Positions 9,359-29,867 of a DNA stretch of 41,523 nucleotides are shown piece after piece. Below the pieces are notes generated by a model. It was not told the origin of the DNA, searched no databases, and was given only the letters and a program-made list of their open reading frames with translations. The position numbers and the translations under genes are program-made. Position 1 is the stretch's first letter. Each line of letters opens with the position of its first letter. The stretch lies in the NCBI GenBank assembly GCA_947449135.1, contig CANFQO010000022.1, positions 1 through 41,523 of the forward strand, in the 5' to 3' direction. The DNA comes from Planctomycetaceae bacterium (GTDB taxonomy: Bacteria > Planctomycetota > Planctomycetia > Pirellulales > UBA1268).

Positions 9359-9410
9359 AACGCTGGTGCTTGCATCGTTCGAAGTTGCTGCCTGTATCCG
9401 CTGCGTACCC

Positions 9411-9515
9411 GGAGTCCCCCGGCTTCCGCCGGGGGCTTTTATTCAACCGGTGCCCTCTCTCAGGCGGTTGTGTCACGATCGAATAAAAGCCCAGAGCGGA
9501 AGCGACGGGACAGCG
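9411..9515. repeat. dispersed palindromic element, copy A (forward half plus inverted half)
   Basis: Two related hairpin units in opposite orientation fill the gap between the convergent pabA and SDR genes. The forward unit (9411-9446) has stem CCCCCGGC/GCCGGGGG around TTCC, then CTTTTATTC. The inverted unit (about 9479-9515) has GAATAAAAGCCC, AGAGC, GGAA, GCGAC and GGGAC. The spacer between them contains CTCAGGCGGTTGTGTCACG. The same arrangement with nearly the same spacer recurs at 29751-29855, so this is a composite repeat of about 105 bases rather than two chance hairpins. Confidence 0.8.
9416..9439 (+). terminator. intrinsic terminator downstream of pabA
   Basis: A perfect 8-bp stem CCCCCGGC (9416-9423) pairs with GCCGGGGG (9428-9435) around a TTCC loop and is followed by CTTTTATT. 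It begins 57 bases after the pabA stop and forms the forward half of repeat copy A. Confidence 0.8.
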
Positions 9516-12051: not shown

Positions 12052-12432
12052 GGCAACGGGAGTGTACCGATCTTCGCGATTTTAGGCGCACGATGGCAGA
12101 CAGCCTTCACACAAAGGCCGGAGATCTGCGGCCCTCGATCCCCGATCCTGAGGAGCCGGTCGGAGGCACGCGCAGGAGCCGGTGAATTCTGCGACTCACG
12201 AGCGATTCGCCATTGTCCATGAGCCTCCCGTAACAGAATCCGCCGGCGACGAGCATGCCGCAGCCGGCGAACCATCCAAGAAGACGTCGGCACCTAAACG
12301 AGCCCCACGGCGGAGGTCCGGATGCCGTCCCCGGCGGCGCGACGCCACAGAACGCTGCCCCACCGTGTTCCTTGTCGGTCTCCCGAGGCTCAACTAGACT
12401 CCCCCACACCATTTTTTCCAGCAGGATTCGGC
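12052..12432. other. 381-base divergent intergenic region
   Basis: This region separates two divergently transcribed genes, so both promoters should lie here, but no convincing -35/-10 pair was found. A 101-codon minus-strand frame (12107-12412) contains a hydrophobic stretch LLGWFAGCGMLVAGGFCYG. It is the only possible gene seen and is not supported by recognised homology. No SAM riboswitch-like or T-box-like structure was recognised upstream of the PLP enzyme. Confidence 0.4.
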
Positions 12433-15895: not shown

Positions 15896-17650
15896 ATGAT
15901 GTCGGAACACGAACACAAGAACGATCCCTGGGCCAACCTCGCCGATTCTCTCGGTGCCAAGCCCGTCGCCAAGCCCGCCTCACCGCCTGCGGCCGCAACG
16001 CCGCCGGCCCCTGCCCGCCCCCCGCAGAAAGCACGCGAGGAGAAGCCAACTCCCGCCGTCCGCTCCGATTGGGGTGGACTGGAATCGGCGTTGGGACTGG
16101 CACCCGCAGGTGAGCCGAAAACATCGACCCCGTCGAGCCGGTCGCAACCGGCCAAGCCTCTCCCACCGGCTGCTCCGCCGGCCCGGGAAGCGGTGGAGCC
16201 ACCGCAGCGTCGCAGCGATCGCGAGCGCGACGAGTTCTCCTTTGGCAGCCGCCGGCCGGCCCCTGAGTCGGCGCCCCAGCAAAGCCGTGAACCGATCGAC
16301 TCCGTCCCGCGACGTGATCCACCGCGGTCGCAGCGGACAGAAGAGCCCGCTTCCTCCGAGACCTTCCGATCAGGTGGCGGAGAACGCGCGGAATCCGGTT
16401 CCCGCGATCAAAACGATCGCGGTCACAACGAATCGGGCTCCGCACCGCGGGGCGGCGAGGACGAGCAGGGTGCGGGCCGTGGTCGCCGTCGTCGTGGCCG
16501 GCGTGGTGGCCGCGGACGTGGTCGCCGCGACGAAGGAAGGGACCGCCCGCTGCCGGGTCAGACGGATGGCGAACATGGCACGGGTGCAGGACCAGGACGT
16601 GTGCCTGCCGGCGCAGAAACGCATGATGGATACGAACGGCCACTAAGAGAGAATCAGGGCGAGGAACAGGGCGAACGGTTCGATCGTGCCGGAGTGGCCC
16701 GCGAATCGAACGGACCTGAGGATGGGGGGCAGCGACCGGACACCCTCGGCGAAGGTGACCGTGACGGGGAGTCCGCTCCCCGTCGCCGCCGCAGGGGCCG
16801 ACGTGGTGGCCGTCGCCGCGGCCGTGGCGACCGTGAAGGAGAGGTCGGCGGTGTTCGCCCGCAGGCCGATCGCGAGGGCGGAGAACCGCCACGTCGCTCC
16901 ACCGAAGGTGAGTCACGGATCCCAGCGGGTGATTCCGCTGGAGATTTTGACGATGAGCCGCTGCCGGCCGGTTACGGCGTGCGTCAGCCCACGAGGCCAG
17001 GTGACGCACCCCGATCGGATGGATCCCGGGCCGGAGGCGGCGATGCATCTGGGAGCCCAAAAACAGACGACCGTGAGCCGGGGGAGGCAGGTGGCCGCCG
17101 TCGTCGTCGCCGCCGTCGGGGCGAAGGCCGCGGCACCACTGGCAGCACCTCTACATCTTCAACCGCTGGCAGCCGCGAAGGCTCCACGGGCCGCCGTTCG
17201 AGCCGCTCCTCAGAGGGCAGCGGCGAACGTCGCGGCAGGCGCAGCCGTCGGAGTGCCGGGGAAGAGCGCCGTTCCGCATCGACGTTCGACCGCGGTCGTC
17301 GCGATGAGTTTGCTCCCGTAGCCGGTGGACGGGAGGAGGACGACGAGGGCCTGGAGTTTCTCGGCATCGAGGATGCTGGCCACGACGGACGAGCTCGTGA
17401 CGAGCGTCACCCTGCCGACGATGATGACAGCATCATCGAGAGCGGGCTCAACGAGGTGCTCGACGTGCCCAGTTGGGTGGAAGCGATCGGAATCGTCATC
17501 GCCGGTAATCTTGATGCTCGCAGCCGATCGCCCCGAAGTGGGGAGGGAAGCCGTGGAGGAGAACCACGCGGCGACTCCTCGACACGAGGTGGCTCATCGG
17601 AAAGATCGCGTGATTCCCGACGCGGCGGCCGCTCGGGCGACCAACGCTGA
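15896..17650 (+). CDS. Arg/Gly-rich low-complexity protein with conserved acidic C-terminal segment
   Basis: A 584-residue, highly charged protein starting MMSEHEHKNDPWANLADSLG. The middle has several Arg/Gly clusters, for example GRRRRGRRGGRGRGRRD (about 193-213), RRRRRGRRGGRRRGRGD (about 294-315) and GGRRRRRRRRGEGRG (about 398-415), separated by acidic Glu/Asp/Gly stretches. The C-terminus has an ordered segment EVLDVPSWVEAIGIVIAGNL before a final Arg/Ser/Gly tail. RGG-like clusters commonly bind RNA, and the layout recalls disordered RNase E scaffolds, but no nuclease domain is present. The frame is open from 15725, yet ordered sequence starts at ATG 15896 (or 15899). A strong terminator within repeat copy C follows. 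Function not known. Confidence 0.65.
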   Translation: MMSEHEHKNDPWANLADSLGAKPVAKPASPPAAATPPAPARPPQKAREEKPTPAVRSDWGGLESALGLAPAGEPKTSTPSSRSQPAKPLPPAAPPAREAVEPPQRRSDRERDEFSFGSRRPAPESAPQQSREPIDSVPRRDPPRSQRTEEPASSETFRSGGGERAESGSRDQNDRGHNESGSAPRGGEDEQGAGRGRRRRGRRGGRGRGRRDEGRDRPLPGQTDGEHGTGAGPGRVPAGAETHDGYERPLRENQGEEQGERFDRAGVARESNGPEDGGQRPDTLGEGDRDGESAPRRRRRGRRGGRRRGRGDREGEVGGVRPQADREGGEPPRRSTEGESRIPAGDSAGDFDDEPLPAGYGVRQPTRPGDAPRSDGSRAGGGDASGSPKTDDREPGEAGGRRRRRRRRGEGRGTTGSTSTSSTAGSREGSTGRRSSRSSEGSGERRGRRSRRSAGEERRSASTFDRGRRDEFAPVAGGREEDDEGLEFLGIEDAGHDGRARDERHPADDDDSIIESGLNEVLDVPSWVEAIGIVIAGNLDARSRSPRSGEGSRGGEPRGDSSTRGGSSERSRDSRRGGRSGDQR

Positions 17651-17684
17651 GGCTGGTTTTCCAGGCTGATGAAACCCGAACCGT

Positions 17685-17806
17685 TTGAATAAAAGCCCCC
17701 TGCGGAAGCCGGGGGACTCCGGTTGGAGCCATCGTCTCGCGTGCCATGCCGATCCGGGATCGCCCAACGGCCCGGTGTCCCCGGACTTCCGTCCGGGGCT
17801 TTTTTA
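17685..17806. repeat. dispersed palindromic element, copy C part 1 (reverse-orientation composite)
   Basis: This 122-base unit is the reverse complement of the unit at 29664-29787. In order it holds TTGAATAAAAGCCCCC, GCGGAAGC and GGGGGACTCC, a spacer with CATCGTCTCGCGTGCCAT and GATCCGGGAT, and a second hairpin GGTGTCCCCGGACTTCCG onward. Reading the reverse strand, the spacer matches CATCCCGGAT, GGATGGCACGCGAGA and CAACCGGAGTCCCC of the other copy. It lies between two convergent genes. Confidence 0.8.
17779..17805 (+). terminator. intrinsic terminator downstream of the Arg/Gly-rich gene
   Basis: A perfect 8-bp stem CCCCGGAC (17779-17786)/GTCCGGGG (17791-17798) around TTCC is followed by C and six T (17800-17805). 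It is the strongest terminator-like signal in the window and serves the plus-strand gene ending at 17650. Confidence 0.85.
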
Positions 17807-17904
17807 TATGGGACGCGCCAGGCCCCGGAGGGCCGGGTAAGCACCCGCGGGCGGAGGCCTGCCAAGCGAAAACGACGCGATGTCGTGTTTCGCGTGAAGA
17901 CAGA

Positions 17905-17964
17905 CAAAAAGCCCTCGGCGGAAGCCGGGGGACTCCGCGCGGAACGATCGTCCCGCGTGCGATG
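17905..17964. repeat. dispersed palindromic element, copy C part 2 (reverse-orientation half)
   Basis: AAAAAGCCCTCGGC, GGAA and GCCGGGGGACTCC are followed by a partial spacer GATCGTCCCGCGTGCGATGC that resembles the spacer of part 1. It is a truncated or single-ended copy directly downstream of the minus-strand gene ending at 17965. The 100 bases between parts 1 and 2 show no match to the other copies. Confidence 0.75.
17906..17931 (-). terminator. intrinsic terminator for the minus-strand gene at 17965-18708
   Basis: On the minus strand the stem CCCCCGGC/GCCGAGGG (one mismatch) encloses TTCC and is followed by CTTTTT. It lies 34 bases past the stop codon of the 247-residue protein gene. Confidence 0.7.
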
Positions 17965-20940: not shown

Positions 20941-21193
20941 TCGCCCACTCCCAGTCTCTTGCTGGATGTGGTGCCACAGGAGGGGCCGAGGGCAGCAATC
21001 CCCCTTCCCTCCACGTCCTTCCTGACGAGGATGTCTTCGAGCGTATCCCGGATAGCTGTAGCGACGTGTTGGCAAACCCAGAGACTTAGGCGAGGGGGTC
21101 GGCGGAAGCTCGAGGAGCGTTGGGCCGCCGCGGCCCCCGCGACGAGACTTTTGCCGCCCCCGAAGCCGGTGCTACACCAAACTCAGATGCGTC

Positions 21194-28526: not shown

Positions 28527-29642
28527 GTGCCACTGCCCGTTTCTTCCCGCTGCGGGGCTGAGCCTACTGCACGGCGGGCGTTCCCGCCTGCCCGTGCCAC
28601 GCCGTGGCCGACTTCCCGCCGGCTTGTTGCGATCGGTGCGGGCATTCTCTGGGGCATGAACTGGTGGCTCGTCGGGGCCACGTGCCGGGCCGCCGACACA
28701 GATATGGCCGCCCCCGTGACGGCGACATGGAGCGGCATCGGCCTGCGGGCATGGGCCGAACGGATCAGCGAGACGGCTGGCGTGCCGGTGCTGATCGACC
28801 GCAGGCTCGACCCCGACACGGCGATCAGACTCGAGTGCCAGGGCGAACCGCTGCTCGACGTGCTCACCCGCGCTGCCGCGGTCGCCGGTGGCGAACTGGC
28901 CGTGTTGAAGTCGTCGATCCGAATCGTGCCACGTGGCACGGCCGACGTCACCATCCGCGCCGAAGCGGCCCGCACCACACGAATCGGCTCCCTCCCGCCA
29001 CGGCAGCGATCGGTGCTCACGCACACCCAGCCGTGGCACTGGCCAGCCGGAGCCCGTCCCCAAAATCTGCTCACAGACGCAGCCGCACAGGCTGGCATCA
29101 GGCTCGAAGGGATCGACACGGTGCCGCACGATCACCTGGCTGCAGTGTCGCTCCCCGAGATGACGCTGGCCGAACGGATCGACCTGCTGCTGGCCCCCTT
29201 CGATCTCCGGGTCGACTGGCTGGTTGACCGGACTGCCGCTAGTGAAGGGGCGACTGCCGCCCTCACGGGCCGGATCATCGCCATTGCTGCCGGACTGCCA
29301 TCCACCACGGCGAGCGCCGCGACAGAAAAACCAGCCGGTCCCAAGCCCACCCGCCGCTTCTCTCCCTCTCGACAGAAGGCAGCTGTGGCAGGAGAAACCT
29401 TCTCCCTGAAGGTTGCGGCACCACTGGAGGAGGTGCTCACGGCGATCGCCACGCGGCTGAGCTTACAGCTCGACCTCGATCGTGAATCACTCACCCGCAG
29501 AGGGATCGCCCCCGGGGAGATCGTGCGGGCCACGGTCACGAATGCGTCGCGTGACGAACTGCTCCGTGCCATTCTGGATCCGCTCGCACTCGACTGGACG
29601 GTCGACGGCACGACGCTTCGCGTCTTTGCGCCAAAGAAATAG
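28527..29642 (+). CDS. exported protein with three STN/secretin-N-like modules
   Basis: A 371-residue protein. After an Arg/Pro-rich start it has a hydrophobic segment (LVAIGAGILWGMNWWLVGA) acting as signal or anchor. Three similar alpha-beta modules follow: about 68-122 (GIGLRAWAERISETAGVPVL and LLDVLTRAAAVAGGELAVL), about 175-245 (PQNLLTDAAAQAGIRLEGID and LAERIDLLLAPFDLRVDWLV) and about 292-368 (LEEVLTAIATRLSLQLDLD and RDELLRAILDPLALDWTVDG). Each has the helix-strand pattern of secretin/TonB short N-terminal domains, which form periplasmic rings or ligand contacts. No secretin pore domain is present. GTG 28527 has CTGGAG about seven bases upstream. Exact role unknown. Confidence 0.6.
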   Translation: MPLPVSSRCGAEPTARRAFPPARATPWPTSRRLVAIGAGILWGMNWWLVGATCRAADTDMAAPVTATWSGIGLRAWAERISETAGVPVLIDRRLDPDTAIRLECQGEPLLDVLTRAAAVAGGELAVLKSSIRIVPRGTADVTIRAEAARTTRIGSLPPRQRSVLTHTQPWHWPAGARPQNLLTDAAAQAGIRLEGIDTVPHDHLAAVSLPEMTLAERIDLLLAPFDLRVDWLVDRTAASEGATAALTGRIIAIAAGLPSTTASAATEKPAGPKPTRRFSPSRQKAAVAGETFSLKVAAPLEEVLTAIATRLSLQLDLDRESLTRRGIAPGEIVRATVTNASRDELLRAILDPLALDWTVDGTTLRVFAPKK

Positions 29643-29663
29643 ATGGATCTCGGTTCGCTGGCT

Positions 29664-29867
29664 TGAAGAGAAGCCCGGAGCGGAAGCGACGGGACACCGC
29701 GTCGTTGAGCCATCCCGGATTAGGATGGCACGCGAGATCATGTTCACAACCGGAGTCCCCCGGCTTCCGCCAGGGGCTTTTATTCCAACGGTGCGTTCAC
29801 TCAGGCGGTTCGGTCACGCTTGAATAGAAGCCCGGAGCGAAAGCGATGGGACACCGGGCTGTTGAGC
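29664..29867. repeat. dispersed palindromic element, copy B (three hairpin units)
   Basis: Three hairpin units, inverted-forward-inverted, fill the gap between two convergent genes. Unit 1 (about 29664-29695): CCCGGAGC, GGAA, GCGACGGG. Unit 2 (29751-29787): GTCCCCCGGC, TTCC, GCCAGGGG then CTTTTATTC. Unit 3 (about 29818-29855): CCCGGAGC, GAAA, GCGATGGG. Units 1-2 with their spacer match 17685-17806 in reverse; units 2-3 with theirs match 9411-9515. This copy joins both composite types. Its right end (GTTGAGC) abuts the stop codon of the TPR gene. Confidence 0.8.
29757..29781 (+). terminator. intrinsic terminator downstream of the STN-like gene
   Basis: CCCC (29757-29760) pairs with GGGG (29773-29776) and GGC with GCC around TTCC, with a single C-A mismatch, followed by CTTTTATT. 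It is the middle unit of repeat copy B. Confidence 0.65.

Follow-up and report, generated by a model that had tools for sequence, protein, structure and literature searches.

Alternating array of opposed hairpins between convergent genes of a planctomycete as a probable part of a class-3-type BIME/REPIN population

The segment 29664-29867 of the window (the whole stretch of 41,523 nucleotides that was analysed, contig CANFQO010000022.1 of a Planctomycetaceae bacterium) is a copy comprising one and a half periods of an alternating array, A>-s1-B<-s2-A>. With high confidence we regard it as part of a class-3-type BIME/REPIN population, i.e., of a dispersed REP/REPIN family of planctomycetes, spread and termination included. 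The opposed pairing of hairpins, the quantised spacing, the copy number, the homogeneity within arrays, the position at gene 3′ ends and the presence of same-design hairpins on both sides of class-3-like HUH genes in relatives are direct observations. The segment is composed of three hairpins (A> at 29671, B< at 29755 and A> at 29828) and two spacers, arranged as A>-84-B<-73-A> with a period of about 157 bp. Its features and those of the related copies in the window are given below.

29643-29866, no strand: convergent gap of 224 nt filled by the array, between reading frames ending at 29642 (+) and 29867 (-); from ORFs and gene model
29671-29695, + strand: hairpin of type A, first unit of the array, imperfect stem, GGAA loop; core pattern with 0 mismatches
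29696-29754, + strand: 59-nt palindromic spacer s1, between hairpins whose 3′ ends face each other; reversed match to 17718-17776, 46/59
29755-29779, - strand: shared middle hairpin of type B, stem near-perfect; core pattern with 0 mismatches
29780-29827, + strand: spacer s2, 48 nt, T/A-rich hairpin 5′ ends facing each other; match to 9439-9486, 38/48
29828-29852, + strand: hairpin of type A, third unit, GAAA loop; 1 mismatch to the core
9414-9438, - strand: hairpin B of an s2 pair, with an s3-subfamily outer flank; core pattern
9487-9511, + strand: hairpin A of the s2 pair; core pattern
17693-17717, + strand: hairpin B of an s1 pair; core pattern
17777-17801, - strand: hairpin of type C of the s1 pair, GGAC/GTCC stem; 2 mismatches to the core
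17909-17933, + strand: another hairpin resembling type B, at a distance of 132 nt from the s1 pair; core pattern

Thus eight hairpins occur in the window, sharing the core AAGCCC-NNN-GCGGAAGC-NNN-GGGAC, starting at 9414(-), 9487(+), 17693(+), 17777(-), 17909(+), 29671(+), 29755(-) and 29828(+), while no Rfam family is found at gathering scores anywhere in it. An earlier note on this DNA had proposed that the first two and the last two units recur at two other places of the window and share the middle hairpin, and both correspondences were reproduced: 101 of 125 bases of composite 1 (29671-29795) are identical to 17677-17801 in inverted orientation, 92 of 107 of composite 2 (29750-29856) to 9409-9515 in direct orientation, and hairpin B at 29755-29779 is common to both. 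The similarity extends beyond the stems, as with hairpins excluded spacer 1 alone retains 46/59 identical positions with 17718-17776 and spacer 2 alone 38/48 with 9439-9486, against 34/59 and 29/48 for the best of 200 mononucleotide shuffles of the window. What had to be abandoned is the description of the segment as two different composites joined in one copy, since its two parts rather represent the two kinds of junction within a single tandem array of alternating units, and the same alternation is present elsewhere in arrays of 4, 5, 6 and 9 hairpins. Nor can the 9.4 kb copy be taken for a partial remnant of the one at 29664: its outer flanks belong to a subfamily with a third spacer type (s3), different from s1 and recurring in sister species (several matches, 94-98% identity along some 50 nt), so that 9411-9515 is not simply a fragment. 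This difference in outer flanks could be read in favor of a chance meeting of two unrelated composite elements in one gap; the recurrence of the A-s1-B-s2 order in numerous clusters, the longest with nine hairpins, refutes such an encounter at the level of the unit map and makes it scarcely credible. At 17806-17899, a tail beyond the s1 pair is repeated together with the pair in sister species.

Genome-wide, the core pattern gives 277 matches at no more than 3 mismatches (places being given for the first 100 of the 277) versus 7 for the reversed-pattern control, and BLAST with the whole copy returned at least 76 matches with 40 of 125 candidates scored. Unit-level mapping of genomic copies, suggested by the earlier note, placed 208 hairpins with up to 4 mismatches within the fetched parts of the genome, forming 77 clusters, or 70 after removal of seven single 4-mismatch matches. 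The size distribution of these 70 (nine single hairpins, 26 clusters of two, 15 of three, 12 of four, four of five, three of six and one of nine) comes from a sample partly chosen for containing matches; in contigs C55-C74, taken whole or nearly whole and picked by number, 3 of 12 clusters are single and two of these three lie at contig ends. Neighboring hairpins are opposed in 130 of 131 pairs in the fetched part of the genome, and types A or C alternate with type B along the arrays. Of 60 pairs facing each other by 3′ ends, 50 are spaced by 84-85 (s1) and the other 10 by 109-131 (s3), and of 70 facing by 5′ ends, 63 are spaced by 72-75 (s2). The paired hairpin as a unit, postulated earlier, is thereby upheld, and a predominance of single hairpins with unrelated spacers, named at the time as the outcome speaking against it, is the opposite of what the map revealed: few clusters are single, spacings are quantised and spacers match. 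Loops of 199 hairpins read GGAA (168), GGGA (15) or GAAA (3), all fitting GNRA, or else GGCA (12) and AAAA (1), which do not, with the reservation that the search pattern itself favors GGAA. The complement of a GTAG tag is absent from the 12 commonest 3′ five-mers in the flanks of the same 199 hairpins; before the stem, one strand reads CGGA or CGGT in most of them (complements TCCGG in 77/199 and ACCGG in 61/199). As for short palindromes present in many extragenic copies, only 1 of 40 clusters falls within a called gene.

Contigs C61, C111, C147 and C110 of G000 start in or near hairpin arrays, so that the arrays probably break the assembly at these points. Two further repeats were encountered in the window. 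A 135-bp element at 12141-12275 has nine matches (78-100%) in 8 of 41 own stretches and many copies of about 88-95% in G001-G004, where genes are often only 75-85% alike; it has no Rfam match, and a similar stretch adjoins a hairpin at L134:18773. The second family, of 141 bp (21051-21191), recurs, with identity up to 96%, in several own stretches as well as in sister species.

The spacers—consensus sequences were derived from 50 s1 and 65 s2 units—are informative about the way arrays are extended. Identity of s1 has a median of 0.915 within arrays (19 pairs) versus 0.767 between arrays (1206 pairs), and 18 of the 19 within-array pairs exceed the 95th percentile of the between-array distribution; for s2 the medians are 0.917 (22 pairs) and 0.667 (2058 pairs), with 15 of 22 pairs above this percentile and 7 not. 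Since spacers of one array resemble each other more than those of different arrays, the data fit growth by tandem duplication. The palindromic s1 is the better conserved of the two, and the typed s1-pair consensus is predicted to fold as one long hairpin (-65.4 kcal/mol as RNA). Neither s1 nor s2 shows any pair changed on both sides; the paired columns being almost invariant, covariation lends the fold no support. Among 79 outward-facing 3′ flanks, 24 retain spacer-1 sequence (identity not lower than the 99.9th percentile for random sequence of the genome) and lack a partner hairpin of 3 or fewer mismatches; one of these ends (C6:15664) has a 4-mismatch partner and seven are weak, with identity of 0.50-0.57. 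Judged by such flanks, partial copies produced by loss or decay of one side do exist, as the earlier note had supposed. Its more specific version, the loss of one side, is matched by an equally good account, decay of the partner explaining the s1-retaining ends as well as deletion does.

The arrangement of adjacent genes was assessed with a simple, home-made gene finder based on codon usage, applied to 787,992 bases. Forty clusters were placed, among which 24 are in convergent gaps, 11 in co-directional and none in divergent ones, one lies inside a called gene and four at contig ends, whereas 568 background gene pairs of the same sequence comprise 101 convergent, 101 divergent and 366 co-directional. 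For the 35 assessable clusters, the convergent excess (24/35) has binomial p of 5e-11 by pairs and 1e-16 by intergenic length, and the lack of divergent ones (0/35) p of 0.001 and 1e-7, respectively. The 17.7 kb cluster was counted here as co-directional from a spurious ORF at 17210-17410, being convergent according to the ORF list, and 24/35 is kept as computed. In 180 of 199 hairpins, the 8 nt downstream of the stem on one strand contain at least five T, in a terminator-like manner, the first two of these belonging to the search pattern. Convergent position and T tails argue for ordinary bidirectional intrinsic terminators, which would be alike owing to convergence of function and G+C-rich sequence and not as copies; the unrelated stems occupying 3 of 10 sister junctions, reached by no more than 4 of 200 shuffles, speak for the same. 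Terminators, however, require neither alternation of A and B at fixed spacing nor homology outside the stems, while spacers are homologous genome-wide (the between-array median of s1 cited above, about 0.77), and this already disfavored explanation we consider very improbable.

Comparison of orthologous junctions in sister species, also suggested earlier, relied, like everything else here, on draft assemblies, one per species. The 224-nt gap of the 29.6 kb junction corresponds, by our reading, to about 7 nt in G003, where the array is lacking; G001 has a fused C-B hairpin, G002 a hairpin of another AAGCCC family and G004 an unrelated 9-bp stem. At 17.7 kb, the C hairpin and part of s1 are kept in G004 and the B hairpin is absent, which may reflect either loss or gain of the latter; G001 and G002 carry the other AAGCCC family, while G003 has a 9-bp stem of unrelated sequence. 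At the 9.4 kb junction, there is a 7-bp stem in G003 and nothing beyond chance in G001, and G002 and G004 lack a complete stretch, hence 10 sister junctions overall: five with an AAGCCC-type hairpin, three with another stem (at most 4 of 200 shuffles reach it) and two with neither. A perfect stem beyond shuffles is absent at S9 in G001, S29 in G002 and G003, and S17 in G002; two of these, S29 and S17 of G002, nevertheless contain an imperfect AAGCCC-type hairpin. The comparison thus supplied one sister lacking the array at 29.6 kb, and the pattern of turnover, drawn from only three junctions, is suggestive only.

These differences bear on another explanation, namely that REPs are kept for RNA or chromosome function (protection of mRNA 3′ ends, gyrase binding), their mobility being long over. 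The bias toward gene 3′ ends and the failure to find tnpA in this genome, G003 and G004 are in accord with it, but the same junctions differ in occupancy between sister species, so turnover went on after the species split; we see such retention as possible, if on the unlikely side. Rather speculatively, and with belief weighted clearly against it, planctomycete convergent junctions might be pictured as terminator sockets, in which class-3-type REP families and ordinary stems replace one another between sister species, selfish hairpins persisting without their own transposase by supplying bidirectional termination. Own-type hairpins with up to 2 mismatches number 269 in this genome, 97, 159, 136 and 74 in G001-G004, respectively, and 71 in G017.

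The search for a mobilizing enzyme gave a less complete picture. The single Y1_Tnp gene (PF01797) of this genome, at L031 1195-1878 at a contig end, was rejected as the partner, having no hairpin of the array family around it and scoring below the cut-off of NCBIfam REP_Tyr_transpos; a short TGAATTTCCGC inverted repeat stands on both sides of the gene and marks an element different from the array hairpins. Two diverged Y1 genes of G002 lie between AAGCCC hairpins, and a protein search with one of them found 25 places in 12 of 39 genomes and no class-3-like tnpA in this genome. Profile search with E up to 1 likewise detected none in this genome, G003, G004, G005, G007 and G021, and among 80 loci from Planctomycetota MAGs a core match was present in three and class 3 tnpA, by tblastn, in none. 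G003 has 136 hairpins of the array kind also without a tnpA match. In 12 aligned proteins of relatives, the second His of HUH, the Tyr and the Gln of Y----Q are invariant and the first H is found in at least 90%; invariant His together with Y----Q corresponds to the class 3 TnpA-Y1 signature in its published outline (PMC6006769). Their filing as class 3 relies on motif and architecture, and their NCBIfam and Pfam matches are below cut-offs. Same-design hairpins stand on both sides of the gene at 10 of the 25 places (10 of the 12 first chosen), compared with none among 25 other Y1_Tnp loci, of which three are copies within a single genome, and 1 of 500 shuffled flank pairs. The GGAA loop of this genome's family occurs in none of the hairpins beside relatives' tnpA genes, which are related but not identical to its own, so that none of these genes is singled out as the cognate one. 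The type next to the G002 gene (GCAA loop, GGGAT end) is represented by 310 copies in G002, 173 in G001, 60 in G003, three in this genome and none in G004, so hairpin subfamily and enzyme travel together in part. Both tnpA genes of G001 end at contig edges, and the absence of tnpA from this genome is weak evidence, since MAG assemblies often break at these repeats.

For the dispersed REP/REPIN family the following course may be proposed. Type A or C alternates with type B, the units being oppositely oriented and separated by the fixed spacers s1 and s2; a hairpin pair could have spread as single-stranded DNA by means of a class-3-like transposase acting in trans, whose gene would now be lost or unassembled, or would have been active in an ancestor; arrays would then be lengthened or shortened via tandem duplication and deletion, and an array placed between converging genes would end transcription from both sides. 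Taken as a whole, the earlier model is partly supported.

Several features have counterparts in known systems, in so far as these are outlined in the cited accounts. E. coli BIMEs (y and z REPs, mobilized by TnpA-REP) also consist of two opposed, alternating types with fixed spacers, form arrays and are extragenic; unlike them, the population described here has no GTAG tag, a GNRA-type loop instead and no tnpA in the assembly (PMC8266576). Pseudomonas fluorescens REPINs (Bertels and Rainey 2011) likewise have opposed doublets that make up a long hairpin, single copies that are remnants, and tandem clusters, whereas here mostly heterodimers with larger spacing are found (PMC3116915). GTAG/CGTC-tagged REP super-families resemble it in dimers with the spacer conserved in one orientation and variable in the other and in the occupation of convergent and co-directional gaps, although neither tag is seen here (PMC3733652). 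Opposed doublets, one-orientation spacer conservation, tandem clusters and convergent/co-directional bias are thus already documented for REPINs, BIMEs and tagged REPs (PMC3116915, PMC8266576, PMC3733652). Class 3 TnpA-Y1 proteins are reported to be rare, perhaps standing between IS200 transposases and RAYTs, and their flanking structures were recognized by manual inspection (PMC6006769); likeness to them lies in the mostly planctomycete distribution, the Y----Q motif and the gene flanked by high-copy hairpins (here in relatives only), and a possible difference in the reported foot CnGA, which is not clearly present in our family. Hairpin pairing and arrays are not among the features listed in the pertinent part of that description (PMC6006769). 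It is beside the class 3 system that the hairpin family fits best.

What is known, then, is the bacterial paired-REP kind; the novelty, in a little-studied lineage, is a class 3 population that is large and ordered and has no visible enzyme. Hairpins of class 3 kind here form large, ordered, heterodimeric populations, one of which, with its 269 matches, resides in a genome without a detectable enzyme, and such an enzyme-less population makes the upkeep of hairpins and their role in ending transcription testable.
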